Source: Hahella ganghwensis DSM 17046 (lineage in GTDB: Bacteria > Pseudomonadota > Gammaproteobacteria > Pseudomonadales > Oleiphilaceae). From it: a stretch of 64,000 nt of DNA. Positions within the stretch are counted from its first letter, which is position 1. Every line of letters begins with the position of its first letter. The translations under genes were made by a program, and so were the position numbers. The notes under the pieces are model-generated. The model was given only the letters and a program-made list of their open reading frames with translations, made no database searches and had not been told where the DNA came from. Of this stretch, positions 25,085-43,739 are shown piece by piece. The stretch is taken from the NCBI RefSeq assembly GCF_000376785.1, contig NZ_AQXX01000113.1, forward strand, positions 1 to 64,000. Direction: 5' to 3'.

Positions 25085-26098
25085 CTAATAATTTGCCGGC
25101 GCTTGCAACATTCCCCTGACGATCCGATCTTTGCTCCTGGTGCCCGGATGATCGATCTGATGCAGCAGCATTTCGACAGCCATTTCCCCCAGTTGGGAAG
25201 CATCATGGTAGATGCAGGGAAAGCGAAGGTTGAATATGTCGGCGTTGGGTAGCTCATCGATGCCGAATACAGGAATATCATCCATGCTCAGATCAAGTTC
25301 TCGCATGGCTTTCATGATGCCAAGAGTGATCATGACGTTGAAAGCGAAGATGGCATCAGGTCGGTTACCCTCATCCAGGTAACGCTTTACTTCCTCGTAT
25401 GCTGGTCCCTGAGTGTAGTCGCCATAGCGCACTTCTATATTGGTGGGCTCTGGAGAGTCTTCGAGGGCTTGGTGCAGGCCCTGATAGCGCAAGATCGAAA
25501 TCTGGGATTTTTTGGGGCCAGCCACGGCGAGTACATGCCGGTGACCCTGAGACAACAGATACTGCCCACCCCGATACCCGCTGAGATAATTGTCCAGATA
25601 AACGCCGCTGAAAGGAGCAGAGTTTAACTGGCGGTCCACCTGAACGACAGGAATGTTGGATCGCTGCAACTGGTCCAGATAACCTGGCTTATAATCTTCA
25701 TCGTCGGAAATCGCCGACAGAATAATGCCGTCCACCTGATAGCTCAATAATGTTTCAATGGCCTTGGCTTCTATAGACTCAGTGGCATCCGTATCGAAAA
25801 GCATAATGGTGTAGTGACGCTTTTTGGCTTCCCGTGAAATGGCTTTAATCATTTGGCCGTAAAAAGGGTGATACAAGCTGGAAGTGACAATGCCGATTAA
25901 TCCACTATTGCTGTTTTTCAGGTTTCGTGCGAAGGCGTTGGGAACATAGTTAAGTTCGCGTGCCACAGCCTGGATGCGTTCCAGGGTTTCCTGTTTAACC
26001 AGTTCCGGTTTATTGAGTGCCCTGGACACCGTGGTGGTTGTCATGTTGACCCGGCGTGCGATGTCGGCAATAGTCGCTTTGGTGTTTTTTGTTGTCAT
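25085..26098 (-). CDS. LacI-family repressor of the sugar/polyol locus
   Basis: A 337-residue repressor: HTH ATIADIARRVNMTTTTVSRAL, hinge helix PNAFARNLKNSNSGLIGIV, then a periplasmic-binding-type effector domain (DGIILSAISDDED, PVFGIDELPNADIF). The frame is open 65 codons upstream, but this ATG begins the usual LacI length. It is divergent from the ABC transporter operon across about 570 bp. That gap holds three LacI-type palindromes, the first just upstream of its own start, so auto-repression and operon control are likely. Confidence 0.92.
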   Translation of the reverse strand: MTTKNTKATIADIARRVNMTTTTVSRALNKPELVKQETLERIQAVARELNYVPNAFARNLKNSNSGLIGIVTSSLYHPFYGQMIKAISREAKKRHYTIMLFDTDATESIEAKAIETLLSYQVDGIILSAISDDEDYKPGYLDQLQRSNIPVVQVDRQLNSAPFSGVYLDNYLSGYRGGQYLLSQGHRHVLAVAGPKKSQISILRYQGLHQALEDSPEPTNIEVRYGDYTQGPAYEEVKRYLDEGNRPDAIFAFNVMITLGIMKAMRELDLSMDDIPVFGIDELPNADIFNLRFPCIYHDASQLGEMAVEMLLHQIDHPGTRSKDRIVRGMLQAPANY

Positions 26099-26156
26099 AG
26101 TCTTTACTGGTGCTGTTTCGCTGGCAGAGCCGGGCGGTGGCAAAATTAAGTTATAA

Positions 26157-26172
26157 AAGTTAACGTTAACAT
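26157..26172. promoter_or_regulatory. LacI-type operator O1
   Basis: GTTAACGTTAAC (26159-26170) is a perfect palindrome centred on CG, as LacI-family sites are. It lies 60 bp upstream of the repressor start and resembles the other two sites in the gap. Confidence 0.7.
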
Positions 26173-26499
26173 AGCAGAATATTTTTGCACAGGGAATATA
26201 CTGTCCTGAGCGTTTTTCGTTCCTTTCCTGCCGCAACTGATCGGTAATGAGATGAAAGGTGTGATAAACGAAAAGGAATAGTAAGTGGCTCATCTTTTTA
26301 TTTTCAGGCGTTAACGACGCTATTCTTAACTCCCTGATTATTATCCAATAAAATTATTTAAGTGATTGCATTTTATCAGTATTTCCTTGTTGTTGAAGAA
26401 TGGGAAATCCACAGTCTGAAACAAATTTCGGGTTGCAATCATAAAATCGAAGTGCTAAAACGAGAACATGCTGCATTTGATGGCATAAGTAGATGTCAA

Positions 26500-26523
26500 A
26501 ATGTAAACGATTGCATTTACATT
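26500..26523. promoter_or_regulatory. LacI-type operator O2
   Basis: AATGTAAA and TTTACATT form eight-bp arms around CGATTGCA. The left half TGTAAACG matches the site at 26609-26622. It lies about 160 bp before the binding-protein start, in a likely promoter position. Confidence 0.65.
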
Positions 26524-26572
26524 CTATGAGGAAATAATCTCAAGGAGTCAGTAGTTCTGAGAGATTGCTTGT

Positions 26573-26596
26573 AAGCCCGATTAATTTGGGCTTTTT
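26573..26596 (+). terminator. Terminator or attenuator inside the operon leader
   Basis: AAGCCC and GGGCTT pair around a nine-base loop and run into TTT. It lies between operators O2 and O3 and upstream of the first structural gene, so it may end short leader transcripts. The stem is only six bp. Confidence 0.5.
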
Positions 26597-26608
26597 AAGA
26601 AAAAGAAA

Positions 26609-26622
26609 TGTAAACGTCAACA
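26609..26622. promoter_or_regulatory. LacI-type operator O3
   Basis: TGTAAACGTCAACA, an imperfect palindrome centred on CG and close to O1. Its position just before the first gene and after the leader hairpin suggests a roadblock or a second promoter site. Confidence 0.55.
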
Positions 26623-26670
26623 TTTTGGTGTCAGGTGATTAATCCTCTAAAAATAACAAAGGATAACGCT

Positions 26671-27591
26671 ATGTTTCCCTTAAAGAACAAAGTCCTTTCC
26701 GTCGTTACCGGCGTCGCTCTCACTCTGGGTTTTACAGCTCCTGCCCAGGCAGAAAAATTGAAAATTGGTATGTCATTTCAGGAACTTAACAACGCTTACT
26801 TCGTCACAATGAAGGAAGCGCTGGAAAGTGCCGCCAAATCGATGGATGCGGAAGTGATCATTACTGATGCCCGCCATGACGTCTCCAAGCAAATCAGTGA
26901 TGTTGAAGACATGCTGCAGCGCGGCGTGGATATTCTGTTGCTGAATCCGACTGATTCTGTCGGTATTCAATCGGCTGTGATGACCGCTCATGAAGCTGGA
27001 GTGATTACCGTAGCGGTTGATGCCCAGGCAGAAGGTCCTCTGGACTCTTTTGTTGGGTCCAAAAACTATGACGCGGGTTATATGGCCGGTAAGTATCTGG
27101 CTGAACAACTGGGTGGCAAAGGGGAAGTTGCCATTCTTGATGGTATTCCTGTTGTCCCCATTCTGGAGCGTGTGCGCGGTTTCAATGATGCCATGAAGGA
27201 ATTTCCAAACATCAAGATTGTCGGGAAGCAGAACGGCAAGCAGGAGCGTGACATGGCCATGAATGTCACAGAAAACATGTTACAGGCCAACCCTGGCCTG
27301 GACGGACTGTTCAGTGTCAACGACACCGGTGCACTGGGTGCCTTGACCGCTATCGAAGCCAGTGGCCAGGATGTGAAACTGGTGAGCGTGGATGGTCATC
27401 CCGAAGCCATTAAGGCCATGATGAAGCCTGGTTCGAAATTCATTGCGACCTCTGCTCAGTATCCTCGTGATCAGGTCCGCCTTGGATTGGCCATAGCGTT
27501 GGCCAAAAAGTGGGGCGCCAACGTCCCGGAAGTGGTACCGGTGGATGTCACCTTGATCGACAAAGACAAAGCTGCCGGATTCAGTTGGTAG
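26671..27591 (+). CDS. Periplasmic sugar-binding protein of a ribose-type ABC importer
   Basis: A 306-residue cluster-B binding protein with a signal peptide (VVTGVALTLGFTAPAQA). The mature part has the RbsB-like fold: LKIGMSFQELNNAYFVTMKE, VDILLLNPTDSVGIQSAVMT, VITVAVDAQAEG, SVNDTGALGALTAIEASG, VKLVSVDGHPEAIKAM. AAAGGA lies eight bases before this ATG; the frame is open 12 codons further up without a ribosome site. It is the first gene of the transport and catabolic operon. Ligand is probably a pentose or polyol, judged from the downstream enzymes. Confidence 0.92.
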   Translation: MFPLKNKVLSVVTGVALTLGFTAPAQAEKLKIGMSFQELNNAYFVTMKEALESAAKSMDAEVIITDARHDVSKQISDVEDMLQRGVDILLLNPTDSVGIQSAVMTAHEAGVITVAVDAQAEGPLDSFVGSKNYDAGYMAGKYLAEQLGGKGEVAILDGIPVVPILERVRGFNDAMKEFPNIKIVGKQNGKQERDMAMNVTENMLQANPGLDGLFSVNDTGALGALTAIEASGQDVKLVSVDGHPEAIKAMMKPGSKFIATSAQYPRDQVRLGLAIALAKKWGANVPEVVPVDVTLIDKDKAAGFSW

Positions 27592-27629
27592 TTTTGGTAG
27601 GAAAACCATTTTCCCTACCCGATGTCATG

Positions 27630-27667
27630 GTACTCGGCTACTCTTAAATTAAGGAGTGGCTGAGTAC
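27630..27667 (+). other. Intercistronic hairpin after the binding-protein gene
   Basis: GTACTCGGCTACTC and GAGTGGCTGAGTAC pair over 14 positions, almost perfectly, with a ten-base loop. Such structures often raise binding-protein expression relative to the downstream transporter genes. Confidence 0.6.
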
Positions 27668-27692
27668 ACGGAGTGATTCCAAAGGTGAACTT

Positions 27693-29204
27693 ATGTCCAC
27701 ACTTCTTACACTTGAACATATATCCAAATCTTTTCCCGGTGTTAATGCACTGACGGATATCAGCCTGCAGTTGCAGGAAGGTGAAGTGCATGCGCTGTTA
27801 GGCGAAAACGGTGCCGGGAAATCCACACTGATGAAAATTCTGTGTGGCATCCATCGTCCTGATCAGGGCGATATTGTCATAAGGGGCAAATCCTGTGAGT
27901 TCCATAACTACCACGACGCCATTGCGGCCGGGGTAGGGATTATTTTCCAGGAATTCAGTCTGATTCCCTACCTGAATGCGGTTGAGAATATCTTTCTTGG
28001 TCGTGAGATCAGGCACTGGGGATTGCTGGATCGTTCGACTATGCGCAGCAAGGCGGCTGAACTGTTCAAGCGCCTTAATGTGGATATCGATCTCGATGTG
28101 CCGGTCGATCATCTCAGCGTCGCCGAGCAACAGTTCGTCGAAATTGCCAAAGCATTGGCCCTGAACGCGAATATCCTGGTTCTGGACGAGCCAACAGCCA
28201 CATTGACCCCCTCCGAGGCTGACCATTTGTTCCGCATCATGAGGGAACTCAAATCCCAGGGTGTCGGCATGATCTTCATTTCACACCATATGGAAGAAAT
28301 CTACGAAATCTGTGACCAGGTCACTGTGTTGAGAGATGGTTGCAAAGTGGGTGAGTGCGCTGTGAAAGATGTGGAAGTCGATGCGCTGGTCGAAATGATG
28401 GTTGGACGTAAGATCGAAAACAGCTTTCCGACGAAAGAAATCCGCCCGGCTGAGACCAAAGTGGTGATCGACGCTCGTTGTATCCAACTTCACAAGGAAG
28501 CGCCGGCAAATAGCTTTCAGTTGTATGAAGGTGAAATCCTGGGATTTGCCGGTCTGGTTGGATCCGGCAGGACTGAATTGGTATTGGGGTTGCTGGGGGC
28601 AACGCCGGTTTATCAGAAGGTAGTGTCCGTCAATGATGAGGCTGTTGCTCTCAAATCACCCGCCGATGCGCTTGGTCTTGGAATTGGCCTATTGCCGGAG
28701 AGCCGGAAAAAAGAAGGCCTGATACTGCCGTTTTCCATTCGTGAAAACATTACGCTCAATAACCTGAGAAAACATTCAGGCAAGGGGGGGCTGATCGACC
28801 GCAAGCATGAAAGCGAGTCGGTTAACGAGTTGATGGCCAAAGTCCGGGTGAAGGCTCCTGATGGTGAAACGCCGGTTCTAAACCTCAGTGGTGGTAATCA
28901 GCAGAAAGTAGTGATCGCCCGATGGCTCAACCATGAATGTCGGGTATTGATATTCGACGAGCCCACCCGTGGCATTGATGTTGGTGCCAAAGCAGAAATA
29001 TATCGGCTGATGAAGCAACTCACTTCGCTGGGAGTGTCCATCATTATGATTTCCTCCGAGCTACCGGAGGTCGTGGGCGTTAGCGACAGAGTGGCTGTGT
29101 TCCGGCAGGGACGTATTGTTGCAACACTGGAAGGCGATGCCGTGAACTCAAACGAAATTATGCGTTATGCAACCGGAGGTACGAGTGATGAACAATATCA
29201 CTGA
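27693..29204 (+). CDS. Sugar ABC transporter ATPase, RbsA/MglA type
   Basis: A 503-residue protein with two ABC domains. First domain: Walker [10 protein letters not shown], signature [15 protein letters not shown], Walker [13 protein letters not shown]. Second domain: degenerate Walker A (GLVGSGRTE), signature [15 protein letters not shown], Walker [15 protein letters not shown]. This arrangement is standard for the carbohydrate uptake transporter 2 family. The stop lies 17 bp inside the permease gene, so the two are translationally coupled. Confidence 0.95.
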
Positions 29205-30174
29205 ATCCCAGATTCCGCACAGGAGCAATACTTCATTCGCGCTCCGGCTGAGTAAATGGCGTAAATCGCCAGTTTTTTACCCTTTGATTGGCTTTGTGGT
29301 GATATTTATCGCCATGGCTTTTATCAATGATAACTTCCTGACCACGACAAATCTGAGCAATGTGGCACGCCAGGTATCGATTAATGCCATCATTGCGGTG
29401 GGAATGACCTGCGCTATTCTGACCGGGGGGATTGATCTGTCTGTCGGTCCGGTCATGGCGTTGTCAGGCACGGCGGCTGCCGGATTGATGGTTGCTGGTT
29501 TCCCGCCGGAAGTGGCGATCCTGGGGGGCTTGATGGTCGGCGCGCTGTTTGGTGCAGGCAATGGAGTATTTGTCGCTTACGCCAAAATGCCGCCAATTAT
29601 CGTTACCTTGGCAACCATGGGAATTGCCCGTGGATTGGCACTGATCTATACAGGAGGCTATCCCATTTCAGGGTTACCTGAGGGCTTTTCAGTGCTGGGG
29701 CGCGGTGAGTTTATGGGAATACAGTTGCCTATTCTCGTCATGCTGGTTGTGTATCTTCTGGCGTTTGTGGTGCTCAACCATACTGCCATCGGCCGCTATA
29801 TTTACGCGATAGGCGGCAATGAAGAAGCTGCCAAGCTCAGTGGTATCCGCGTTTCCCGCTATAAATTATTGGTATACACGATCAGTGGTGTGACTGCCGC
29901 CCTTGCCGGCATTGTATTGACTTCCCGTCTGATGAGTGGCCAGCCCAATGCGGGCATTGGTTTCGAGCTGGATGCCATCGCCGCAGTCGTTCTGGGAGGC
30001 ACAGCCATTGCCGGTGGTCGCGGGGCCATTATCGGAACCCTTATTGGCGCCATGATGCTGGGCGTATTGAACAATGGGCTCAATCTGATGGGAGTCTCCC
30101 CATACGTTCAAAATGTCATCAAAGGCGGGATTATACTGCTGGCGATATATATCAGTCGCAGCCGCGATAAATAA
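29188..30174 (+). CDS. Sugar ABC transporter permease, RbsC type
   Basis: A 328-residue inner-membrane protein with eight to ten helices and the CUT2 permease signatures: [31 protein letters not shown], and the cytoplasmic ATPase-contact loop [19 protein letters not shown]. The start has GGAGG upstream and overlaps the ATPase gene. It works as a dimer with the double ATPase and the binding protein encoded just before. Confidence 0.95.
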
Positions 30175-30360
30175 AACTTCCTGAAACTTTCATAACAGCT
30201 TTCCTGAGGGGAAGCTGGCAGCCTCGCTCGTTCTGCCGTCAGGAGAAGCAGGTTTGAAAGCCTGGCGGGAGGTGGGCGGAATGAAAGCAATATGAATTCA
30301 AATAAGTGTGAATCGACAGAATTTCGGATTAAAAAAGTACAGCAACATCATGGAGACGAA

Positions 30361-31440
30361 ATGATGAGCAAATTACCTGAAACCATGACTGCGGTGGTCT
30401 GCCATGCGCCGAATGATTACCGGCTGGAGCAGTGCCAGCGTCCTGTGGCTAAACAAAATGAAGTGATCATCAAAATTGAAGCCTGCGGTATCTGCGGAAG
30501 TGACTGCAAAGCCAGTTCCGGTGCCGATATGTTCTGGTGTGGTGATGATCCTTGGTTGAAAGCACCGGTAATTCCTGGTCATGAGTTTTATGGCGTGGTG
30601 GCAGAACTGGGAGAAGGTGCTGCGGAGCACTTTGGTGTCACTGTTGGTGATAAAGTCATTGCAGAACAAATCGTTCCCTGTGGTAAATGCCGCTTCTGTG
30701 ATACCGGGAAATACTGGATGTGTGAAGTGCACAATATCTTCGGCTTCCAGAAAGATGTGGCGGAAGGGGGAATGGCTGAATATATGCGGGTACCGGCAAA
30801 TGCGCGGTTGCATAAGATACCTGACTCCGTATCTCTGGAAGACTCAGCCCTGATTGAACCCATGGCCTGTGCCATCCACACGGTCAATCGCGCGGACATT
30901 CAATTGGATGATGTGGTGGTTCTGGCAGGGCTTGGTCCCTTGGGGCTTTGCATGGTTCAGGTGGCTAAGTTGAAGACGCCGCGCAAAATAGTCGTTATCG
31001 ACATGGTAGATGAGCGGTTGGAACTGGCCAAGGCTTTTGGCGCCGATGTCGTACTGAACCCCAGCCGCGACGATATCGATAAAGAAGTAAAAGGCATGAC
31101 CGACGGATATGGTTGCGATGTCTACATCGAAGCGACTGGGCATCCGTCAGCGGTTACTCAGGGTCTGCAGATCATTCGCAAGCTGGGGCGTTTTATTGAG
31201 TTCAGTGTCTTTGGAGCAGAAACGACCACCGATTGGTCGGTGATCGGCGACCGTAAAGAGTTGGATATTCGTGGAGCTCACCTGGGGCCTTATACCTACC
31301 CGGTTGCCATTGATTTGCTTGAGCGTGGCCTGGTGACTTCCAGAGGAATAGTGACTCACGACTTCAGTCTGAATGACTGGGAAGAAGCCTTTAAGTTGGC
31401 CTCTTCGACCGATTCCATCAAGGTGTTGTTGAAACCCTGA
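30361..31440 (+). CDS. Zinc-dependent polyol dehydrogenase (MDR superfamily)
   Basis: A 359-residue oxidoreductase. The catalytic zinc site is visible (EACGICGSDCKA with the first Cys, PGHEFYG with the His/Glu), as is the structural zinc loop with four Cys (CGKCRFCDTGKYWMC). The Rossmann motif is VLAGLGPLGLCMVQ. It resembles sorbitol/xylitol and erythritol/threitol dehydrogenases; the GAPMFW-like variant SGADMFW favours the latter group from memory. GGAGA precedes two adjacent ATGs; either may be used. It would feed a ketose to the FGGY kinase encoded next. Confidence 0.88.
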   Translation: MMSKLPETMTAVVCHAPNDYRLEQCQRPVAKQNEVIIKIEACGICGSDCKASSGADMFWCGDDPWLKAPVIPGHEFYGVVAELGEGAAEHFGVTVGDKVIAEQIVPCGKCRFCDTGKYWMCEVHNIFGFQKDVAEGGMAEYMRVPANARLHKIPDSVSLEDSALIEPMACAIHTVNRADIQLDDVVVLAGLGPLGLCMVQVAKLKTPRKIVVIDMVDERLELAKAFGADVVLNPSRDDIDKEVKGMTDGYGCDVYIEATGHPSAVTQGLQIIRKLGRFIEFSVFGAETTTDWSVIGDRKELDIRGAHLGPYTYPVAIDLLERGLVTSRGIVTHDFSLNDWEEAFKLASSTDSIKVLLKP

Positions 31441-31451
31441 GGAGTAATGAC

Positions 31452-32987
31452 ATGGCTTACATAATTGGTGTGGATATCGGTACTCAGAGTACCAAGGCCC
31501 TGTTGATGTCAGCATCAGGGGAACTCATTGCCCAGGCTTCAGCAGCCTATCAGGTGGAGCAACCCAAACCCCTATGGGCTCAGCAGTGGCCTGATGTCTG
31601 GCTGGATGCTGTTCACAAGACTCTCGGCCAGGTTGTTGCTCGTGGCAACGTGGTACCTGGCGATATCAAGGCGGTTTGTGTCAGCAGTCTTTATGGTGGA
31701 TCAGGAATCCCAGTGGATGCTGGCATTAATGCCCTGCACCCCTGCCTGATCTGGATGGATCGTCGGGCCAATGATGAAGTGGACTGGGTGCGTGAGCACG
31801 TGGACCTGGACAAACTCTATGCCGTGACCGGTAATGGGGTGGACAGCTACTATGGGTTCACCAAAATGCTGTGGTTGAAACGCCATCAACCTGACGTATG
31901 GCGGCAGACCAAATACCTGATTCCACCCAACAGCTATGTCAATTATCACCTGACTGGCGAGCTGGCCGTTGACCACAGTTCCGCCGGTAATATTGGCGGG
32001 GTATACGACATTCAGGACCGTTGCTGGTCGCATGACATGCTGGAGACGCTGGGAATAGACCCGACGATGATGCCTGAGCGTCTGCTGGCGTCCGGCGATG
32101 TTGTGGGTGAATTGACGGCAGAAGCGGCGCGACTGACGGGCCTGGAAGCGGGGACTCCTATCGTGGCTGGCGGGGTGGATGCGGCCATGGCGACACTGGC
32201 CGCAGGTGTCATTGAGCCGGGTAACCATGTGGCGATGATTGGCACCAGCATGTGCTGGGGGTATATCAACAAATCCACCGATGCCCGCAATGGCCTGATC
32301 AGCATGCCCTATGTCCACAATGGTAACGAGGATATCTATATCTTCGGTGGCGCAATAACGGCAGGCGCTTCGATCAGTTGGTTCCGTGACCAGTTTTGTG
32401 CTGAGGACAAGCATGCAGCCCAGTTGCTCGAGAATGTGGACGTACATGAGTTGATGGAGTTGCAGGCGGCCAAAACGCCTGCAGGAGCAGAAGGACTGAT
32501 ATTTCTACCTTACCTGATGGGGGAGCGAAGCCCGGTCTGGGATGCCAAGGCGTCTGGTGCTTTTGTCGGTCTGACTCTTTCACACAGCAAATCACATCTG
32601 TATCGGGCGGTGTTGGAAGGATTATCGTTTGCTCTGCGTCACAATATGGAATGTGGTGCCAAAGGAGCAGTTTGTCTGGATCAGGAATTGATTGTGGTTG
32701 GTGGGGCCTCTCATTCAGATCTGTGGATGCAGATTATTGCCGATATCACCGGGTACCCTGTGTTGACCATTGAGCAAGAAGTTGAAGCCCCCTTAGGTGG
32801 CGCGTTATTGGCAGCCATGGTCTGTGGAATGGTGGAAGATATTGCAGAAATCCGGCGTTGGAGCAAGTTACGTGTACGTGCAACGCCGGACCAGACCCGC
32901 AAACAGCGGTATGACAAACTCTTTGCAGAGTATTGTGGTATCTATCACTCCCTCAAGCCTCATATGCATGCATTGGCCAAGCGCTGA
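31452..32987 (+). CDS. FGGY-family carbohydrate kinase, xylulokinase-like
   Basis: A 511-residue kinase: N-terminal phosphate-binding motif IIGVDIGTQSTKALLMS, substrate-side PCLIWMDRRAND, HLTGELAVDHSSAGNIGG, MIGTSMCW, and the C-terminal FGGY signature GERSPVWDAKASGAFVGLTL. It probably phosphorylates xylulose or a related ketose made by the preceding dehydrogenase. GAGG lies just before the ATG, and only 11 bp separate it from the dehydrogenase. Exact substrate is not determined by sequence. Confidence 0.92.
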   Translation: MAYIIGVDIGTQSTKALLMSASGELIAQASAAYQVEQPKPLWAQQWPDVWLDAVHKTLGQVVARGNVVPGDIKAVCVSSLYGGSGIPVDAGINALHPCLIWMDRRANDEVDWVREHVDLDKLYAVTGNGVDSYYGFTKMLWLKRHQPDVWRQTKYLIPPNSYVNYHLTGELAVDHSSAGNIGGVYDIQDRCWSHDMLETLGIDPTMMPERLLASGDVVGELTAEAARLTGLEAGTPIVAGGVDAAMATLAAGVIEPGNHVAMIGTSMCWGYINKSTDARNGLISMPYVHNGNEDIYIFGGAITAGASISWFRDQFCAEDKHAAQLLENVDVHELMELQAAKTPAGAEGLIFLPYLMGERSPVWDAKASGAFVGLTLSHSKSHLYRAVLEGLSFALRHNMECGAKGAVCLDQELIVVGGASHSDLWMQIIADITGYPVLTIEQEVEAPLGGALLAAMVCGMVEDIAEIRRWSKLRVRATPDQTRKQRYDKLFAEYCGIYHSLKPHMHALAKR

Positions 32988-33035
32988 TCTGTCGAGTTTG
33001 TAAGTAATAAAAGTTGTAAGTAAAAGAGGCTAAGA

Positions 33036-34106
33036 ATGAATTCTTTACTTGAACAGCTCAAAGCGTTCAGTACTGTCGTGGCTGACACGGGAGATATCGA
33101 GGCAATACGCTGTTATGAGCCGGAAGATGCGACCACAAATCCCTCGTTGATTCTCAAAGCAGTGCAATCCGGTAAATATGATGATCTTCTGCAGCAGCTG
33201 GTGGACAGCATTGACCATGCTATTCCCCGGGAAAAACTGGTAGAGGAGCTCTGTGACCGGTTGATTGTCGCCATGGGGACCAGAATTCTGGATGAGATAC
33301 CCGGACGCGTATCAACAGAAGTGAATGCCAGATTGTCGTTTGATTATGAGGGCAGCCTGGCCAAGGCTCGTAAGCTGGTGCAGCTGTATGAACAAGCGGG
33401 AGTTGGACGCGAGCGTATTCTTATTAAACTGGCGGCCACTTGGGAAGGCATTCAAGCGGCCAGAATTTTGGAGTGTGAAGGTATTCAGTGCAATCTCACC
33501 CTGGGAATTGATCCGGGGATGGCGGACCTTCTCCATCGACCCAACGTGAAGGGTATCTGGAGTGTTGCGATGGTCAGACCCCTATATACAGATGGCAAGC
33601 GGGACGGACATCAGGTGTTCAGCGATTATGTCGATGGGTTTCAGGATGTCGTGCGGGTTCTGGGAACGATTCATAACCGCTACATTCCACGTTCCATGGA
33701 GGCTGAACAACCTGAGACTCTGATGTACGAATGTACTAATGGTCTGGCGGATGCGGGAACCGTCAACCATCCGAATGGTGGGTCTTTTACAGGTTTTGTT
33801 CATACCAAGTGTTATTACGATGATATCAATCGCAAGAAGTACTATTTTGGCGATGCGTTTACTGTCGGTGACGGTTTTGATTATGTGAAACTGGTAATGA
33901 CAACCTGGAACAACTGTGATTACTGGCATCAGATTTCATCCACGGTAAAGCAGCACCAAAACAACATTCGTGTTGAGGATCCGGGATTGCTGGCAGGAAC
34001 ACCCTACTGCGGCAATAAATGGCTGACAAATGCGGCACATGGCGCCAAGAAGGGATCTGTTGTGATGTGGGACCATAACTCGTCCTGCGCAGGCTCCGGC
34101 TGCTGA
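33036..34106 (+). CDS. Chimeric gene: transaldolase N-terminal half joined to an unrelated C-terminal domain
   Basis: Residues 1-155 are clear class-1 transaldolase: [41 protein letters not shown], and [12 protein letters not shown] with the Schiff-base lysine, up to CNLTL. There the family should continue LFSxxQA ... SPFVGRILDW. Instead about 200 residues follow that I do not recognise, with [43 protein letters not shown] and a CAGSGC end. The phosphate-binding half of the barrel is missing, so normal activity is unlikely. Six cysteines in the tail suggest an extracytoplasmic domain origin. No frameshifted remnant of the missing half was found locally. Confidence 0.85.
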
Positions 34107-34179
34107 GATTATTTCCTTCGGCGGTTCTCTCTCCTAAATGCATTGTTCTCCAAAATAATTGTTCTTCAAAAAAATAAGA

Positions 34180-34212
34180 GCGGCAGGCCAAAGGCCCGCC
34201 GCCTCTTTCGTT
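34180..34212 (+). terminator. Terminator of the catabolic operon
   Basis: GCGGC-A-GGCC, loop AAA, GGCC-C-GCCGC, then CTCTTTCGTTT: a GC-rich stem with one mismatch and a T-rich end. The remaining sequence to 34423 shows no gene and presumably holds the promoter of the next operon. Confidence 0.75.
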
Positions 34213-34423
34213 TCTGTAATAAGCCCCAAACGCCTGCTCCAAGTTATGTGTCAGGGTTCACTTCTTAACGGCATGAAGTGCTGAAAGCAGTTTGTGGCGT
34301 TTTGAAAACACGCTATCATGACGAAGCTGCACGGATTACGCCTTGTTTTTCAACGACTTGTCGCGTTTTTGTTACGCTGGTAATTCTACAACTACATCAA
34401 TATTGCAATTAAAGGGAATTATT

Positions 34424-36712
34424 GTGATCTATTCATTTTCGTCTCTACCGAAAGACAAAACCGATGTGGGCGGCAAAGCCTATATGCTTGCGATGATGAC
34501 GCAGTTGGGAGTTCGCGTTCCCAAAGGCTTCATCCTCGATGCTCGCCCGAATCATCAGGAACTCGAAACTATCTGTCAGGCTTTTGGGGAAAGATTCTGC
34601 GTCGCTGTGAGGAGTTCAGCGACAGGGGAAGACTCCAAAGAGCACAGTTTCGCCGGTCAAAATGCTTCATTTCTATTCATTGATACTCGGGAAGCATTGG
34701 AAAGCGCGATCGACCAGTGTTTCGATTCGATCCTGCAGGAATCATCAACCTCCTACCGACAACACTTTCTCGGATCAACCAAGGCCCTGCCCATGAATGT
34801 GGTGGTTCAGGCGATGGTGGATGCCAGATATGCCGGAGTATTCTTCAGCAAAGATCCCCGCAATGAAGAAAAAGGCTGGATACTGGAGTACATCGAGGGA
34901 GTCGGGGAAGATCTGGTATCGGGTAAGAGAACACCGGTACGGGTGCACGAAGGCAATGTCAGCTCGGAGATAACGCCTGAGCAAATGGAAGAAATCATTG
35001 ACGTTTCCCGGTTATTGGAAACCAAATACAACCAGGATTTCGATATTGAATGGGCCATTGATATTTATGGTGCTGTGCATCTGCTACAGGCTCGCCCGAT
35101 TACCGCAAAAAATTCCATTTCTCAAATCAAGAGTGTCGCCTCTGAAGAACTGGAGCGGTTGAAGCGGACCTATAGTAAAGACACGACCTGGGATGGTCAG
35201 ACTTTTGCCGAGCTTTCTATCAATCCCAGTACTTTTTCGACTGAGCTTTGGAGTGATTCCTTTAAGAAGAATGCTGCATTTGATAAGGCTCTGCGTCGTA
35301 TCGGTTATCTGGGGTACCGTGATATGGAAGAGAATGAATCCATACTGGATAACGTGTTTGGCAAGAACTATGTGAACCTGACCAAACTGGCGCCTCTGTT
35401 TTTCGGACCCATGCCATACTCCATCCAGCCGTTACCACGCCCTCATCTGAAATTTCGGTTTTCAAAAATCAATCTGAAAACGATTCTGTACACACCCAAA
35501 ACGGTTTACAACATGATCGCTGCAGGCCTGAATGTGAACTCGCATCGGCAAGAGTTCATTAATATGGCGAGTAAAGATCTGATAGGTTTTTCTACGATCA
35601 TGGACAGACCGAATGATCTGAACTGCTATCGATCCTGGAATGATGACGAGTTGAAAAGCCGTCTGTTGAAGGAAAAGACGGTATTTACCCGTGATACTCT
35701 TGTCTGGCCCTACGTGCTTATCTCGCTGACTGAAACAACGATCCAGACACTTCACTCCCTGCTGGCCAATATTTTTGATGATCACAAGGCGTCCGACCTG
35801 ATTCGTCATTGGACCGGTTATGGTGTGAAAACTGAAACCTATGAAATGGGACGTTATTTCAGGAAAGCTTGTGCCCGGCCTGAATTACGGAGCATGTTTC
35901 TGGAAAAGTATGGCCATCGCGGACCTGGTGAACTGGACCTGATTTCCAGACGCTGGTCAGAACTGGGCGACGATGCTTTCTATGATATGAGTATTGAAGA
36001 GTATGAAAAGAGTAAGACTCATCATGCCTTTGTTGATGTAGAAGCGGAAATCCGGCAGTTCAACTCGTTCAAGAAAACCCTGGTTCTGGAAGAATGGCAT
36101 CTGCTGAAAGACCTGATCGAGTTGAGAGAAAAGTGGAAAATGGCGATTCTGAAACCCTTCGCCCATTTTCGTTATATATTGATGGAATTCGGTCGGAGAT
36201 ATGAACTCAATACCGATGATGTCTTCTGGTTGAATGCGGAAGAAATCGTTCAGTTTAATAAATCTGTTCACCTGCCTCTCATCAGGGAGCGCAAACATCG
36301 ATCAAAACTATTCAACAATTTCAATTTCTCAGCGGTCACTTCCATTCAGGAAATCGAACGCGCGCTGAACAGCCAGCACGCAGAAAACGACAATCTAAAA
36401 GGAGAAGGAATCTCTCCAGGATTGGTAAAAGGGGAAATCCTGGTCATTAGCGATCCAAACAAATGGAAGAGCATCAAGTGGCCCGCAAATCCGATTATCG
36501 TCGCAGAATCCACTGATCCGGGATGGACACCGGTTTTTACCAAGGCCAAAGGAATTATTGTTTCGAAAGGAGGCGTGTTGTCTCACTGCGCTATCGTTGC
36601 CAGAGAGATGGGAATTCCTGCCGTTAGCGGAATCATTAATTGCCATAACACATTCAAAGGAGGGGAAAATGTTTGGCTTGACGGAAATGATGGAACTATC
36701 CGTATCATCTGA
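34424..36712 (+). CDS. PEP-synthase/rifampicin-phosphotransferase-like enzyme
   Basis: A 762-residue protein. N-terminal ATP-grasp-type domain: DVGGKAYMLAMMTQLGVRVP, VAVRSSATGEDSKEHSFAGQ, VVVQAMVDARYAGVFFSKDP, IEWAIDIYGAVHLLQARPIT. A poorly conserved middle region of about 400 residues follows, then the swivelling phosphohistidine domain (GEGISPGLVKGEI, KGGVLSHCAIVAREMGIPAV, with the His at about residue 721). This is the order seen in rifampicin phosphotransferases; the acceptor here is unknown. The GTG chosen has AGGG eight bases upstream; the frame is open 27 codons earlier. It overlaps the propeller gene by 44 nt. Confidence 0.85.
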   Translation: MIYSFSSLPKDKTDVGGKAYMLAMMTQLGVRVPKGFILDARPNHQELETICQAFGERFCVAVRSSATGEDSKEHSFAGQNASFLFIDTREALESAIDQCFDSILQESSTSYRQHFLGSTKALPMNVVVQAMVDARYAGVFFSKDPRNEEKGWILEYIEGVGEDLVSGKRTPVRVHEGNVSSEITPEQMEEIIDVSRLLETKYNQDFDIEWAIDIYGAVHLLQARPITAKNSISQIKSVASEELERLKRTYSKDTTWDGQTFAELSINPSTFSTELWSDSFKKNAAFDKALRRIGYLGYRDMEENESILDNVFGKNYVNLTKLAPLFFGPMPYSIQPLPRPHLKFRFSKINLKTILYTPKTVYNMIAAGLNVNSHRQEFINMASKDLIGFSTIMDRPNDLNCYRSWNDDELKSRLLKEKTVFTRDTLVWPYVLISLTETTIQTLHSLLANIFDDHKASDLIRHWTGYGVKTETYEMGRYFRKACARPELRSMFLEKYGHRGPGELDLISRRWSELGDDAFYDMSIEEYEKSKTHHAFVDVEAEIRQFNSFKKTLVLEEWHLLKDLIELREKWKMAILKPFAHFRYILMEFGRRYELNTDDVFWLNAEEIVQFNKSVHLPLIRERKHRSKLFNNFNFSAVTSIQEIERALNSQHAENDNLKGEGISPGLVKGEILVISDPNKWKSIKWPANPIIVAESTDPGWTPVFTKAKGIIVSKGGVLSHCAIVAREMGIPAVSGIINCHNTFKGGENVWLDGNDGTIRII

Positions 36713-38072
36713 TTATTTAATCGAGGGGTATCAGCAGGCAATTGTGCCAACGGTTCTGTTGCCACTGGCATTTCTTGGGACAGCATTGAGTCTGATCGCC
36801 ACATTTGTTGCTGGATTATTTGGAATCAAGCTAAAGGCGGAAGGGGCCAGAAAGCTTCTGGAGCTGTTGCTAAAGCCGAAGATCATTCTGTTTGCTGTGG
36901 GTTTGAATTTGCTGATTTATGCCGGCTTTCTGGGGTTCAATCATATTAAAAACGGTCCGGTTCCTCGGGTTGTGCAGAAGCTCGCCAATCAGGAAACGGA
37001 GTACTACCAGAAAGCAAGGCAGGGCGTTATGGCTCTCTGGGAGCAATCATTGCAGGATGAGGGAATTTTTGCCCGCGGCACGGTGGTGGGAGATGAACTC
37101 TTCTTTGGGACGAGCGAAGGTCATCTTTATGTGGCTGATGCCAATACCGGTAATATCAAAAACCGATTGTTCCTGGGCAAGTTTCTGACGCCCAGCCCAA
37201 CCCTGTATAAAGGCCATCTATACTTTGGTGAGGGTTTGCACCAATCGCACAGTATGGGCATTTATAAGTTTGATCCGGAAAGCAAACAGGTTGTTTCTCG
37301 TTTTGAAACTAACGGCCATACGGAAATCTTTCCTGTGTTCGCCAGTCATGAAGGTGTCGACTATCTATTGCAGACTGCCGGGGAAGACGGGCTTTATGCC
37401 GTTGATCCGAACACCATGTCAAAGATCTGGCAATTCAAGGGCGGGCATATGGATGGTTTTGCTCTGGTGGTCGGTGAACATGTCTATATTGGTACTGGCA
37501 TCCCCAGGGAAGGGTTTAGCCTCAGAAGGCCTTTTGCATTCAAACTGAACCTGAAAGACGGCTCTGTAGTGTGGAAAAGAGAATTGCCGCTTTCAGCCTG
37601 GTACGGGCCGATGCGAGTGGAAGACAATGTGTGTTTCATCCAGGGAGAAATCCACATTGATACCAATGTCGGAGGAATTTCCTGCATGACAGAGACAGGG
37701 GAAAGAACCCACTCGCTGGTGATTAACTATCCTGTGGTAGGCAAACCCATTGTAAAAGATGAAGTGATTTACCTGAATGATTTCTTCGGCAACCTATACG
37801 CATGGGACGCGATAAATAATGAGCTTAAATGGGAGGTCGAGTCTGAGATCAAGCAGGGATCTTATTCTTCTGTCCAGTTTTATAATGGCAAAGAAATCAT
37901 TTATGCCAAACGGACTGGTGGGGTTTTGATTGTGGATATGGATAGTGGTCGTGTCAGGGAAGAAGTGGATTTCGTCCAGGATGAACTCATCTATGCGGAT
38001 CCCCTAGTGATAGAGGATGCTTTCTACCTCTTCGGCATGAAGGGAAGTATTTTCAAGTCCACGAAAATCTAA
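36669..38072 (+). CDS. Membrane-anchored PQQ-like beta-propeller protein
   Basis: A 467-residue protein with two N-terminal hydrophobic segments (TVLLPLAFLGTALSLIATFV and IILFAVGLNLLIYAGFLGF), then a periplasmic or cytoplasmic seven-to-eight-bladed propeller of PQQ/BamB type: GDELFFGTSEGHLYVADANTG, LYAVDPNTMSKIWQFKG, GNLYAWDAINNELKWEVES, GVLIVDMDSGRV. No quinoprotein catalytic residues were recognised, so a scaffold role is more likely. AAAGGAGGGG precedes the ATG, which lies inside the preceding kinase-like gene, so the two proteins are made together. Confidence 0.8.
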   Translation: MFGLTEMMELSVSSDYLIEGYQQAIVPTVLLPLAFLGTALSLIATFVAGLFGIKLKAEGARKLLELLLKPKIILFAVGLNLLIYAGFLGFNHIKNGPVPRVVQKLANQETEYYQKARQGVMALWEQSLQDEGIFARGTVVGDELFFGTSEGHLYVADANTGNIKNRLFLGKFLTPSPTLYKGHLYFGEGLHQSHSMGIYKFDPESKQVVSRFETNGHTEIFPVFASHEGVDYLLQTAGEDGLYAVDPNTMSKIWQFKGGHMDGFALVVGEHVYIGTGIPREGFSLRRPFAFKLNLKDGSVVWKRELPLSAWYGPMRVEDNVCFIQGEIHIDTNVGGISCMTETGERTHSLVINYPVVGKPIVKDEVIYLNDFFGNLYAWDAINNELKWEVESEIKQGSYSSVQFYNGKEIIYAKRTGGVLIVDMDSGRVREEVDFVQDELIYADPLVIEDAFYLFGMKGSIFKSTKI

Positions 38073-38081
38073 GGCTGAAAG

Positions 38082-38125
38082 CCCGCGGTGCTGTGTCTGG
38101 GGGATGTCTGACATAGCAACGCGGG
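38082..38125 (+). terminator. Terminator-like hairpin after the propeller gene
   Basis: CCCGCG-G-TGCT-G-TGTC pairs with GACA-T-AGCA-A-CGCGGG, a 16-position stem with two mismatches, followed by ACTGTTTCT. It lies between convergent genes. Confidence 0.6.
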
Positions 38126-38176
38126 GACTGTTTCTAATTGATATTTTCTCTGGGGCCTAGGACGCCTCAATAAACG

Positions 38177-38911
38177 CTAGTTCAATTCCGCTCTCTTCAA
38201 TACTTTGTGTTCTTCCTCACTGACGCCTAGTTTCCAATAACTGGAAATATAGAGGTCTTTTTTATCGAAGTTGGGTAGAGCTCGAAAATGAGCTCTTAAT
38301 TTTCTCATACTGGTTAACTCGCAGGCACACCAGATGGATGGACGCCCTTTCAGCCAATCCAGCTGTCGGACTTTATCTAATAAAAACGTGTCTCTGGTGC
38401 CTGGGCGGGGATTGATTAGCCAGTGAATTTCGATGTTATCCGGAGTTTTCAGGGGCTGAATATCGGATTCATTGATGACTTCAATGATCACATACCCTCT
38501 GGCGTGCTTTGGAAGTAGCTCAAGATTAACACTGATAGCTGGTAGGGCTGTCATATCACCGACGATGAGGAACCAGTCTGCGCTGTCGTCTACCAGTTTC
38601 TTCGGACCTGGGCCTCCTACAGTAATCCGGTCTCCAGCCTTGGCACTTGTTGCCCATGTGGATGCCGGGCCACCGTCCTCATGAATGACAAAATCAATGT
38701 CAATTTCATCATGACGCTGAGCCCTGACTGTATAGGTTCGCAATATTGGTTTAACGCTGTCTGTGTTGGGAAACATCAATTTTACATAAGCACTTTCCTG
38801 TTCCTCCGGAAAGTCAGCCATGCCTTCACCCCCCAGGGTCAGGCGAAGCATATTCGGGGTCACCTGTTGTTTGCGAAGGAGGGTTAATTCTCTCGGGCTG
38901 GGTTTGCTCAT
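38177..38911 (-). CDS. Siderophore-interacting FAD reductase (SIP/ViuB family)
   Basis: A 244-residue flavoprotein that would reduce ferric siderophores in the cytoplasm to release iron. Family features: VTPNMLRLTLGGEGMADFPE, KPILRTYTVRA (FAD-binding RxYT), DFVIHEDGGPASTWATSAKA, FLIVGDMTALPAI, and a C-terminal ISSYWKLGVSEEEH. A TTG 22 codons upstream overlaps the MarR stop by four bases; it could be the true, coupled start, but this ATG fits the usual N-terminus. It is co-transcribed with the MarR gene. Confidence 0.9.
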   Translation of the reverse strand: MSKPSPRELTLLRKQQVTPNMLRLTLGGEGMADFPEEQESAYVKLMFPNTDSVKPILRTYTVRAQRHDEIDIDFVIHEDGGPASTWATSAKAGDRITVGGPGPKKLVDDSADWFLIVGDMTALPAISVNLELLPKHARGYVIIEVINESDIQPLKTPDNIEIHWLINPRPGTRDTFLLDKVRQLDWLKGRPSIWCACELTSMRKLRAHFRALPNFDKKDLYISSYWKLGVSEEEHKVLKRAELN

Positions 38912-38973
38912 TGATACACTCTCATACTTTGCTCCAGGACTCAGCGGCACTGGTTCCTGCTTGAAGTTTTCCG

Positions 38974-39423
38974 TCAATCTGTATTCGGGTTCAGGTTATC
39001 CATCATGATTCTGGCCAGACGGACGAACTCTTCGATTTCGTCCTGTTGCAGGCCCTCAGACATTCGTTTCCCGGCCAGATCTTCGGCCTCTTTGATCCGT
39101 TTTATTGTTTCAACTCCCTTATTGGTAAGTCGCAGAATCTGACTGCGACGATCTTTGGGGTTGTCACTTTTCTCAATCAGGTTTTCAGCAAGTAAGTCTT
39201 TTATCACCCGGGTAATCTGCGCTTTATCCAGTTTCAGGCGTGTTGAAATGGTTTGAGCTGTACAGATTTCGTCGGTATTTTTTTGATAGTGATTGATCAC
39301 TTTTAAAGATCGGATATGAGAGACAGCAAGGGAAAGACCAACTTCTTGGTGACCTTGTCTCATTGCTCGTTTGTAGGTATGTAATAACTGGTGAAGAGAT
39401 TCACCAATATTTATCTCAATCAT
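38974..39423 (-). CDS. MarR-family regulator
   Basis: A 149-residue winged-helix protein: LAVSHIRSLKVINHY, AQTISTRLKLDKAQITRVIKDLL (recognition helix), and the wing KSDNPKDRRSQILRLTNKG, all standard MarR features. It lies directly before the siderophore-interacting reductase gene. Two matching palindromes just upstream of its start suggest self-repression of both genes. Confidence 0.92.
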   Translation of the reverse strand: MIEINIGESLHQLLHTYKRAMRQGHQEVGLSLAVSHIRSLKVINHYQKNTDEICTAQTISTRLKLDKAQITRVIKDLLAENLIEKSDNPKDRRSQILRLTNKGVETIKRIKEAEDLAGKRMSEGLQQDEIEEFVRLARIMMDNLNPNTD

Positions 39424-39441
39424 AGTGATTTGTGGTATTTG

Positions 39442-39485
39442 GTTGATTTTGTCAACTATATAGAGATAAGGTTGATAGTGTCAAC
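39442..39485. promoter_or_regulatory. Two MarR-type operators
   Basis: GTTGA-TTTTG-TCAAC (39442-39456) and GTTGA-TAGTG-TCAAC (39471-39485) are palindromes with identical arms, 29 bp apart, within a 19-bp direct repeat. They lie immediately upstream of the MarR gene and between divergent transcription units. Confidence 0.75.
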
Positions 39486-39686
39486 TATGTTTTGGTTGTG
39501 AATTGGGAGGAGTGGTATCGACATTTAGCCAGCTCCAATGCTGCTCACTTGTCACGACTCTTTTGTCATAACTCATTTGTCACGACTTAGCTATCAGGTC
39601 CCAGTATTTGAGGTGGCGGAGTAGGTTAGAGACGTGATCTAATTCCCGATTATTCCTTCTCAAAACAAGATAACGCTGAGTTCAAG

Positions 39687-40391
39687 ATGATTTATCAACT
39701 GGCTACAGTGGGGCTGGCTCCCTTGCTGATCTATCAGGGTAAAAAGGTACGTCGGGAGACCCCCAGGCTGCCGGAACCCTTGGGGGCCAGGTGTGGGAAA
39801 ACCGGCACCGGCGAGCCTCTCAGACTATTGATTGCCGGAGACTCGGCGGCAGCAGGAGTTGGGGTTGAGGCACAGGATCAGGCGCTGGCAGGAAGACTCT
39901 GTCGTCAGCTCGCTGAGCGTTATCGGTTGTCATGGAAATTGGTTGCCCAGACGGGCTATACCGCGGCGGATGTCGTAACACGATTGCAAGCTGAGCCTGA
40001 GCAACGCTTTGATGTGGCCTTGCTCTCGGTAGGAGTCAATGATGTGACAGGGAGGACGTCGATAAAGGCCTGGAATCAACATCTTTGGGGACTTTCTGAT
40101 CTTTTGAGGCAGCGGTTCTCTGTGGAGACAATCCTGTTTACCAGCGTGCCACCCATGCATTTATTTCCAGCCCTGCCACAACCCCTGAGATGGTATCTCG
40201 GGTATAGAGCTGACATGCTGGATCAAAGCATGAGAAATCTATTTCGTGATCAACCTGACATCAAGGTTATTGAATCCTTTTCTGAGCCGAATCCCTCATT
40301 TATAGCCGCTGATGGGTTCCACCCCGGTGCAGCAGGATATGAGGAATGGGCTACGGCGGTGTTTGGCGCACTGAGTGCTGAGACACGGTGA
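39687..40391 (+). CDS. SGNH/GDSL hydrolase
   Basis: A 234-residue protein with SGNH blocks: LLIAGDSAAAGVGV (nucleophile Ser), GYTAADV, LLSVGVNDVTG (block III), and DGFHPGAAGYEEWA (Asp/His). A hydrophobic N-terminus (MIYQLATVGLAPLLIYQG) could be an uncleaved anchor. It is the second SGNH hydrolase in the window but not closely related to the one near 23 kb: the spacing and surroundings of the blocks differ. Likely an esterase or lysophospholipase. Confidence 0.88.
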   Translation: MIYQLATVGLAPLLIYQGKKVRRETPRLPEPLGARCGKTGTGEPLRLLIAGDSAAAGVGVEAQDQALAGRLCRQLAERYRLSWKLVAQTGYTAADVVTRLQAEPEQRFDVALLSVGVNDVTGRTSIKAWNQHLWGLSDLLRQRFSVETILFTSVPPMHLFPALPQPLRWYLGYRADMLDQSMRNLFRDQPDIKVIESFSEPNPSFIAADGFHPGAAGYEEWATAVFGALSAETR

Positions 40392-40401
40392 AGCTTAGAT
40401 G

Positions 40402-40437
40402 CGCAGGGCAAGAACTGCTTGCTTATCCTGCCCTGCG
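40402..40437. terminator. Hairpin between convergent genes
   Basis: CGCAGGGCA and TGCCCTGCG form a perfect nine-bp stem with an 18-base loop between the SGNH hydrolase and DUF2860 genes. No T-run is present. Confidence 0.55.
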
Positions 40438-40463
40438 TCCAAAATTAAACGTGTCAACAGGCC

Positions 40464-41570
40464 CTAGAAACTATAACCCACAATCGCACCAAGAATGGCT
40501 TCTTCGGAATCATAGAATTCGATGTTGGAGTCAGCTTCGCTGTAGCTGGCAAACCAAGTTAAGTGAGTGTTTTTAAATGCCAGAGGTTCGCCGATGGTAA
40601 ATGAAACATTGGCCGAAAGACGGTCATCTTCGCGAACTTTGTCGAATACCGGGTGACTGGCGTCAAATTCAAAGCTGTCGTAGTTTAGTCCACCTGTCAG
40701 TACATACTTGCCAAACATGTAGTTGAGCTTAACCCCGGCGCCATAGCCGCCAAAACTCTGAGCTTCTCCTTCGGCATCAAGAGCGGTATAGCTGATCTGG
40801 GAGGATAAAAACAGCGAGTCAGTGAGAGGGACTGACCCTCCCAGGGATACCTGATAAAAATCGCCGGCCCGTTTCAGTAACTTCATTTCGTTGGAAGTGA
40901 TACCACCGGGTTCGTCCAGGAGCGATGTTCCCGAGGCTTCGTTTTCAATTTCGATCTCTCCGACGATATATTCGAATGAAATAGGAAGCTGCAGAATATT
41001 CTCGGCGGCAAATCGGAATGCATTGGTCTCCTGGTCTGTTTCTTTCCTGTCGTTACCGGTTAAGAAGGGGTCTTCCCAGACTTCACTGCCGGCACCGCTG
41101 ATAAACGGTATAAACGAGAGACTGAGCTTGGTGTCGGATGCCAGACGATGACTGACGCCCAGTTCCAGCATACTTTCACCGAACATGGCTGGTAATTCGG
41201 GGGAAGTGAGAAATATCTGGGTTTGAAGATTGTCGAAGGTGTAGGTGACATCGGCCCCTAATCCAAATATTCCGGAACTTTCTTCTTTATGTTCTGAGGA
41301 GAGGGAATCGATGCTCTTGTTGTCGTCACTGGTTGTCGCATGAGAGGGTTTTGATTGGCTGGCACCCAATATGACGGAAAGAGAAGTCTGAAAGCCTGGT
41401 TTGATATCATCCTCGCCTGATGCCCTCGGCTCGGCGGCACCTGCTGCGGAGGAAAGGGTTATCAATACAATTGATGTTTCAATTAGACATGGCCGGTTAG
41501 CTTGGCTGATAGCGGGGGATCTTTTTGATTCTAAATTTGTCGGGCAATATTGGGTGGCTTGTGGTTTCAT
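40464..41570 (-). CDS. DUF2860-like outer-membrane barrel
   Basis: A 368-residue protein resembling the DUF2860 family of vibrios and relatives. Signal region near residues 20-45 (IETSIVLITLSSAAGAAEP), an acidic Ser-rich segment (DDNKSIDSLSSEHKEESSG), then alternating strands: FGLGADVTYTFDNLQTQIFL, GESMLELGVSHRLASDTKLS, YGAGVKLNYMFGKYVLTGGL, ending GAIVGYSF with the barrel-assembly Phe. AGGA lies seven bases before the ATG chosen; the frame is open 25 codons further. Function unknown. Confidence 0.75.
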   Translation of the reverse strand: MKPQATQYCPTNLESKRSPAISQANRPCLIETSIVLITLSSAAGAAEPRASGEDDIKPGFQTSLSVILGASQSKPSHATTSDDNKSIDSLSSEHKEESSGIFGLGADVTYTFDNLQTQIFLTSPELPAMFGESMLELGVSHRLASDTKLSLSFIPFISGAGSEVWEDPFLTGNDRKETDQETNAFRFAAENILQLPISFEYIVGEIEIENEASGTSLLDEPGGITSNEMKLLKRAGDFYQVSLGGSVPLTDSLFLSSQISYTALDAEGEAQSFGGYGAGVKLNYMFGKYVLTGGLNYDSFEFDASHPVFDKVREDDRLSANVSFTIGEPLAFKNTHLTWFASYSEADSNIEFYDSEEAILGAIVGYSF

Positions 41571-41958
41571 TTTCAATCCTGATGTACGGCTGGGTTTCCT
41601 GAAAGGTAAAACGAAATATCCTTCCTGCATTAAACCTTGTCGCACATTAAGATGGTATTAACAGAACATGTCGGTTTTAGTCGTTTTGAGACAGTTCTGG
41701 ACGACCTGGCTGCCTATTTCTCGACACATATTTCTTTCCATTTGGCCATCATTCGCCATATTCCCATCCCCGGATTGACAGAATCACTTGTCAGAGTGAA
41801 GTCATTGACAGTTAATCAGTTTGGCTGTCGGAGAGTGAGCACTGCAGGTGAGTCTTCGAACGCAGTGGCCAGTGTCTCACTCCTGCAAATGGAGCGTTAG
41901 TGAGCTTGATTTAAATAGCTCTTGAATTAATTAACAAAAGTAAGAATAGGGGATTCAT
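41571..41958. other. Gap between divergent genes, promoter region
   Basis: About 390 bp. A plus-strand frame of 87 codons exists, but it lacks a ribosome site and its composition is not protein-like. It presumably holds the promoters of the DUF2860 gene and the small gene at 41959. Confidence 0.4.
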
Positions 41959-42291
41959 ATGTTCGATGCGGTTTCAGGTGATGACGGCAGTGGCATTGTA
42001 TACGTGCGCGCTATTGAAACAGAAAACCCATCAGTCTCTAACACCATACATCTGGGAGACACCGTCGAGCTCTTTGTTAACGGAGAAGGTGTTTTCGTCA
42101 TCGTGACTGACTTTTTGTCGGGAGAAAGGCTTCCAGGGAAGGAAGGCGAGGAGCCGGGTCAAGTGCTGACAGGCGCTTTGGAAGGGGTCGTCACGGATAT
42201 TCCGGCGGCTTCGATCAATACCGGTCTGGAAATCGCCGAGGTGATACGTTTCGGTCTTGCAAATATTTCCCGGTGCTTTCAATCCTTCTGA
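41959..42291 (+). CDS. Small hypothetical protein
   Basis: A 110-residue acidic, beta-rich protein with no signal peptide. AGGGGA lies six bases before the ATG. The stretch NTIHLGDTVELFVNGEGVFV may form a small barrel. No family recognised. A second small reading frame with its own ribosome site follows 152 bp later. Confidence 0.6.
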   Translation: MFDAVSGDDGSGIVYVRAIETENPSVSNTIHLGDTVELFVNGEGVFVIVTDFLSGERLPGKEGEEPGQVLTGALEGVVTDIPAASINTGLEIAEVIRFGLANISRCFQSF

Positions 42292-42443
42292 GCTTTCCAT
42301 TAAGGCAGATATGGAGGTTCAAGGGAGTTACAGACCGAATAAGGGAAAACCGACATGAAGAGAAACATGCTGACGTGTTTTCCTTTTTACCATCGCATAT
42401 ACAGACAAGAGTGATCAAAAAGTGAACTTTTAAGGTGAAGAAA

Positions 42444-42575
42444 ATGGAACAGAGAGTACACAGACAGATCAGAGCCATTCGCAAATATGCCAAATCACGT
42501 AATCTTGCGCTGGAAACGGCTGCCAGAGAGTGGTGTGCCTGCGGACTGGCCGCAAGGTGGGCGGAGGCTAATTAG
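42444..42575 (+). CDS. Very small basic protein, 43 residues
   Basis: The translation begins MEQRVHRQIRAIRKYAKSRN and ends ETAAREWCACGLAARWAEAN. It is helical, basic in the first half and carries a CAC motif. AAGGTG lies a few bases before the ATG. Compact two-helix proteins of this kind occur in gammaproteobacteria, but I cannot name a family. Codon use looks like that of its neighbours. Confidence 0.5.
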   Translation: MEQRVHRQIRAIRKYAKSRNLALETAAREWCACGLAARWAEAN

Positions 42576-42659
42576 ACCTAAGACACCCTGGTACACACTA
42601 ACCTCCACCCTGTTTATTACGTTCCTTCGTTTGTTATTTCCTTGCCCCTGAATTTTCTG

Positions 42660-43508: not shown

Positions 43509-43739
43509 GATACGTCCTTGTTTCAATTGTTCATCCATGAAGCTTCATTATGCTGATAAGCGGTCATCGACAATATAAGAGTCTGTCCAGTCTTTTTGTC
43601 AGAGATTTCTCAATGGTGATGCTGTGTTTTCTTTTTTTGGCCGGTTAAGCCTTGCCGAATAAATTTGGAAAGCAGTATCCTACCCCGCGCGAAGCGATAC
43701 CGAAGTGGTTGCTGCCAATTCTTAGACAGGAAATTTTTT

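Follow-up and report, generated by a model that had tools for sequence, protein, structure and literature searches.

The open reading frame at 33036-34106 of the window, by which we denote the whole 64,000-nucleotide stretch of Hahella ganghwensis DSM 17046 analyzed here, joins the first half of an operon-encoded transaldolase gene (tal) in frame to 200 codons of no known family, and its probable origin is a recent deletion or replacement that linked the half tal to the 3'-terminal part of a different gene. The frame runs on the forward strand from ATG 33036 to TGA 34106, and its translation comprises 356 amino acids with zero internal stops, in agreement with the initial annotation. Its 5' part (33036-33503, forward strand, codons 1-156, ending in CNLTL) is identified as a TalA/B-type tal by Pfam, by NCBIfam and by its identity to the homologous gene of Hahella sp. 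CCB-MM4. Similarity to the CCB-MM4 operon and to TalA/B transaldolases ends at about 33503/33504, as judged from blastn and from the ends of the profile matches, and the remaining 33504-34106 (forward strand) constitutes an orphan tail with six cysteines, which matches no family and presents host-like codons in this frame only.

The truncation of the transaldolase domain is evident from the profile matches. Pfam TAL_FSA (PF00923) aligns residues 14-156 with profile positions 1-138 of 285 (E 2.4e-40) and NCBIfam talAB (TIGR00874) aligns residues 4-156 with positions 2-155 of 317 (E 1.3e-60), so that both matches end at residue 156, where the initial annotation had placed the end of the transaldolase sequence. 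The talAB score of 205.4 bits lies below the curated cut-off for full-length TalA/B (396.2), which the complete 329-aa transaldolase of CCB-MM4, 85% identical to the N-terminal half, exceeds at 453.3 bits. Among 34 matching PDB chains, the alignment stops at residue 157-158 in 23 and at residue 165 in three; the other eight, distant and short, align weakly beyond residue 157, to 173-198.

Within these limits the N-terminal half, which holds four cysteines, is ordinary TalA/B sequence. Residues D17, N35, E95, K131 and T155, which we take to be catalytic positions, with K131 as the presumed site of the Schiff-base lysine, are retained and are invariant in 15 aligned sequences, all from one genus. 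A whole-ORF structural model, calculated from a 15-sequence alignment of this protein (P0001) and 14 N-terminal halves (L018 being omitted from the 15 other places), is fair to good over residues 1-156 and places five strands at about 15-16, 31-34, 92-95, 128-133 and 151-155. The product is thus predicted to keep strands 1-5 of the eight-stranded barrel together with the Schiff-base lysine, and to be devoid of strands 6-8. TalA and TalB differ in having strands 6-8 of their own, with residues that we assume to form the phosphate-binding pocket; here, the profiles stop at residue 156 and the tail aligns with transaldolase C-terminal halves at the level of shuffled sequence. Lacking these strands and the phosphate-binding part, the product is not expected to adopt the fold of an active transaldolase, and transaldolase activity of the 356-aa protein is very unlikely. 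The case cautions against annotating such reading frames as enzymes, since a long in-frame ORF with a strong tal match here encodes what is predicted to be a broken one. The bifunctional transaldolase/phosphoglucose isomerase family NF007080 likewise places an additional domain after a transaldolase domain, and matches weakly (E 6.1e-10, positions 42-166 of 949 only). In that protein, however, a complete transaldolase domain precedes the isomerase, whereas the present ORF combines a cut transaldolase with a tail that matches no family.

Comparison with CCB-MM4, a relative from the same genus, locates the break. This organism presents the same operon in the same neighborhood, with its complete tal followed by a short-chain dehydrogenase/reductase (SDR) gene. 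When 63 kb of CCB-MM4 (contig C74, 15000-78000) were compared with the window by blastn, the operon side aligned in three pieces over 25098-33502 and the other side aligned in pieces over 34388-44264, DNA similarity halting at 33502 and returning at 34388, just ahead of a phosphoenolpyruvate (PEP)-synthase-like gene. Between these flanks lie about 34 kb in CCB-MM4 (C74 34822-68914) versus 885 bp in the window. Both flanks maintain the same order and orientation on a single CCB-MM4 contig, including the PEP-synthase-like gene and a reductase-like gene (38177-38977, named by eye). The complete gene of the relative in the same operon and the breakdown of DNA similarity at the junction both favor a recombination chimera. 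No DNA trace of the lost tal half was detected at 33503-34387 in this blastn comparison, in keeping with the earlier remark that the gene carries no frameshift remnant; a frameshifted remnant was also considered and rejected, the tail's own frame being the coding-like one.

The 34 kb of CCB-MM4 encode, as named by eye (L020 and L040, contig C74), a TRAP-type transporter, a LacI-type regulator, a fructose-bisphosphate-aldolase-like gene, an ATPase/VWA-like gene set and a GMC-type oxidoreductase-like gene. No counterpart of the aldolase-like protein came up in the window's genome, in a search that had no positive control, and the TRAP-type binding protein has there at most a 34% match.

The window's genome (6.56 Mb in 144 contigs, rated 100% complete) holds two complete paralogous tal ORFs elsewhere, of 324 and 318 aa and matched over both halves, which answers the question of whether a second complete transaldolase exists. 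A query composed of the CCB-MM4 tal C-terminal half and SDR gene failed to recover the orthologous half or the SDR gene from this genome; it matched only the paralogous transaldolases (68% and 58%) and, at no more than 35%, 17 SDR-type sequences. The paralogue at L002 1498-2472 is 67% identical to the N-terminal half and adjoins a gene resembling arabinitol dehydrogenase or fructuronate reductase, with scores below curated cut-offs.

More broadly, we inspected loci encoding relatives of the operon kinase, with flanks of up to 6 kb, some of which end at contig ends. Among the best 80 of 186, a complete tal is present at 10 (one being that of CCB-MM4), a half tal at none and no tal at 70, and the tail is found at 0 of the 80. 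The initial annotation had envisaged relatives with a full transaldolase at this locus and the tail domain elsewhere; the first part is seen in the ten complete genes and the absence of halves, while the tail appeared nowhere else. The parts of the literature on Hahella ganghwensis, transaldolase fusions and transaldolase active sites that were available contain nothing on this locus.

Taken together, these data suggest that a deletion or replacement would have cut the operon tal at codon 156, removing its second half and the downstream SDR gene (about 34 kb in all, if CCB-MM4 displays the older state) and placing the remainder in frame with at most 200 3'-terminal codons of a gene formerly located upstream of the PEP-synthase-like gene, with the two complete paralogues making such a loss tolerable. 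Bacterial genomes form chimeric genes through deletion or recombination, and the locus shares with such genes the collinear flanks, the differing inner segment and the in-frame ORF across the break; it departs from them in that its 3' donor has no relative in the collections searched. On this reading, the locus adds to the cases in which rearrangement disrupts an operon gene and paralogues make the loss tolerable; the orphan tail excepted, it illustrates ordinary genome decay.

The direction of the event is a more delicate matter. Loss in the window's lineage appears the likelier course, but CCB-MM4 was the only relative seen with this operon at this position, so that its lineage may instead have gained the 34 kb. 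The PEP-synthase-like gene is present in six of the seven genus genomes sampled, the window's own included, at 78-80% in the other five. Four other genus genomes have in common a few hundred bases upstream of this gene that the window and CCB-MM4 lack; the latter two share with those four, and with each other, only the start of the gene and up to about 40 bases before it. This distribution suggests that the flank was rebuilt before the split of the window and CCB-MM4 or in each of them, the place having in the latter case undergone more than one change.

Estimates of selection bear on the age of the break. The dN/dS against CCB-MM4 is 0.041 for the N-terminal half and 0.039 for the adjacent kinase; it ranges over 0.013-0.043 in the remaining operon genes and is 0.012 in the LacI-type regulator, all rough values given dS of 1.0-3.4. 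The half gene stands at the level of its operon, indicating either that the break is recent relative to the split or that the half is still constrained. Relaxed selection on the N-terminal half was considered and set aside: set against the majority of seven outgroups (from eight loci tried, two having no ORF by the motif filter and the tal of contig C94 being added), the window departs at 4 positions and CCB-MM4 at 0, numbers too small to count. The rest of the sugar/polyol operon (26635-32987, forward strand), which encodes a periplasmic binding protein, an ABC ATPase, a permease (by eye), a Zn-dependent dehydrogenase and an FGGY (xylulokinase-like) kinase, shows no visible damage, and its description as otherwise intact is consistent with the dN/dS range above.

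The tail probably derives from the 3'-terminal part of a second gene. Searched alone, as had been proposed, residues 157-356 gave no family in Pfam, NCBIfam, PHROGs or PADLOC; the best match among PDB sequences had E 0.52, and there was none in 72,556 plasmid records, in 50,697 phage records (limit 0.1) or in viral contigs. A scan of genome contigs from 84,980 species, which reaches only close relatives, yielded 4 stretches fitting the pattern, of which zero were confirmed as relatives. In overlapping sets of genomes, the tail has no match at E 0.01 in 161 of 162 others of the family, including all six of the genus, and in 366 of 368 others of the class, and none at E 0.001 in all 397 others of the phylum. 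The matches in these sets are attributed to chance: one (G120) has E 0.003 and 35% identity over 57 aa that are interrupted by a TAG, and two (G415 and G168) have E about 0.007. A hidden transaldolase C-terminal half was likewise rejected, for although MAFFT and some PDB chains align parts of the tail, its alignment scores against the C-terminal halves of three transaldolases were reached by 262, 389 and 819 of 1000 shuffles.

These searches uphold the view of the tail as some 200 residues unlike any transaldolase. It was described earlier as having six cysteines and many aromatic residues; the count of six cysteines is correct and unusual, being reached in only 3 of 131 overlapping 200-aa windows from 25 ORFs of the window, whereas the 23 F/W/Y are equalled in 25 of the same 131 and the aromatic content is hardly distinctive. 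The G+C content of the tail is 0.498. Scored with a codon table built from 25 long window ORFs, and thus a rough yardstick, the tail reaches 0.146 per codon in frame 0 and no more than 0.014 in any of the other five; for comparison, 73 in-gene windows of 200 codons have their median at 0.25 and their 5% point at 0.116. Structure prediction, which had been suggested as a check, assigned the tail no confident fold: pLDDT is below 50 throughout 157-356 in the whole-ORF model, and a single-sequence model of the tail alone has a mean pLDDT of 33.5 with 199 of 200 residues below 50, values that say little about the fold of a sequence devoid of relatives.

Of the three readings entertained in the initial annotation, the recombination chimera fits best, the assembly join is disfavored and a protein making use of the Schiff-base half-barrel found no positive support. 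The chimera reading itself has points against it: the tail donor was found nowhere, so that the second parent is deduced; the tail is stop-free with host-like codons, so that decay is not visible; and the dN/dS of the N-terminal half is not raised, which equally fits a protein still under selection. We consider it unlikely that 33503/33504 is a false join and that the real genome carries an unassembled complete tal at this place. Such an artefact would suit a draft of 144 contigs and a tail and fusion that were not found convincingly in any other genome searched, but the junction stretch 33400-33620 matches the rest of the genome only at the tal of contig C94 (77% over 92 bases, with a longest identical run of 17 bases) and in a 22-base stretch (E 0.36), leaving no repeat that would explain a misassembly. 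Furthermore, the flanks are collinear with one CCB-MM4 contig, and the orthologous C-terminal half was not found in an assembly rated 100% complete.

Rather improbable, in turn, is an arrangement of two genes in one frame, in which a dead tal fragment runs into an intact small protein of 178 aa starting at ATG 33570. A consensus-like GGAG seven bases ahead of this codon (33559-33572, forward strand) marks a possible separate start, and the host-like codons of the tail would be accounted for; the GGAG match is nevertheless short and may be due to chance, the stretch has no convincing relative in the genomes searched, and a PHROGs search with the 178-aa form by itself gave nothing. We give slightly less credit still to a working fusion protein in which the tail forms a domain that acts together with the half-barrel and its lysine, completing or capping the barrel. 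The in-frame, stop-free junction and the host-like tail codons are compatible with it, as are the operon-level purifying selection on the N-terminal half and the retention of five strands and five named positions. It is opposed by the detection of the fusion in a single genome, with no tail match at E 0.01 in any of the six other genus genomes, by the normal tal of CCB-MM4, by the absence of three of eight barrel strands and, as weak evidence for a tail without relatives, by the tail pLDDT below 50. No relative with the fusion was found, and nothing in the model suggests that the tail completes the barrel. Least probable of all is the specific form of this idea in which a newborn enzyme, its five tal strands and Schiff-base lysine completed by the orphan cysteine-containing domain, would have acquired an altered aldolase-type activity in the sugar/polyol operon. 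Were the protein functional, it would represent a naturally occurring split barrel complemented by an unrelated domain and would be informative about how barrels evolve.

To the right of the chimeric ORF, the region where similarity to CCB-MM4 returns (34388-38072, forward strand) contains a PEP-synthase/PPDK-like gene and a PQQ-propeller gene. Over 32900-34500 Rfam gave no match, and terminator-like sites number 3 against 1.2 expected. A G+C-rich hairpin at 34179-34203, between the tail and the next gene, has a terminator-like score on the reverse strand only, and 10 of 200 shuffled sequences fold as well as 34107-34260, so that the predicted structure of that stretch lacks significance. The intergenic stretch 34107-34387 also contains a 16-bp tandem repeat in 2.8 copies at 34130-34175, ahead of the PEP-synthase-like gene, and the PQQ-propeller ORF overlaps the PEP-synthase/PPDK-like gene that precedes it.
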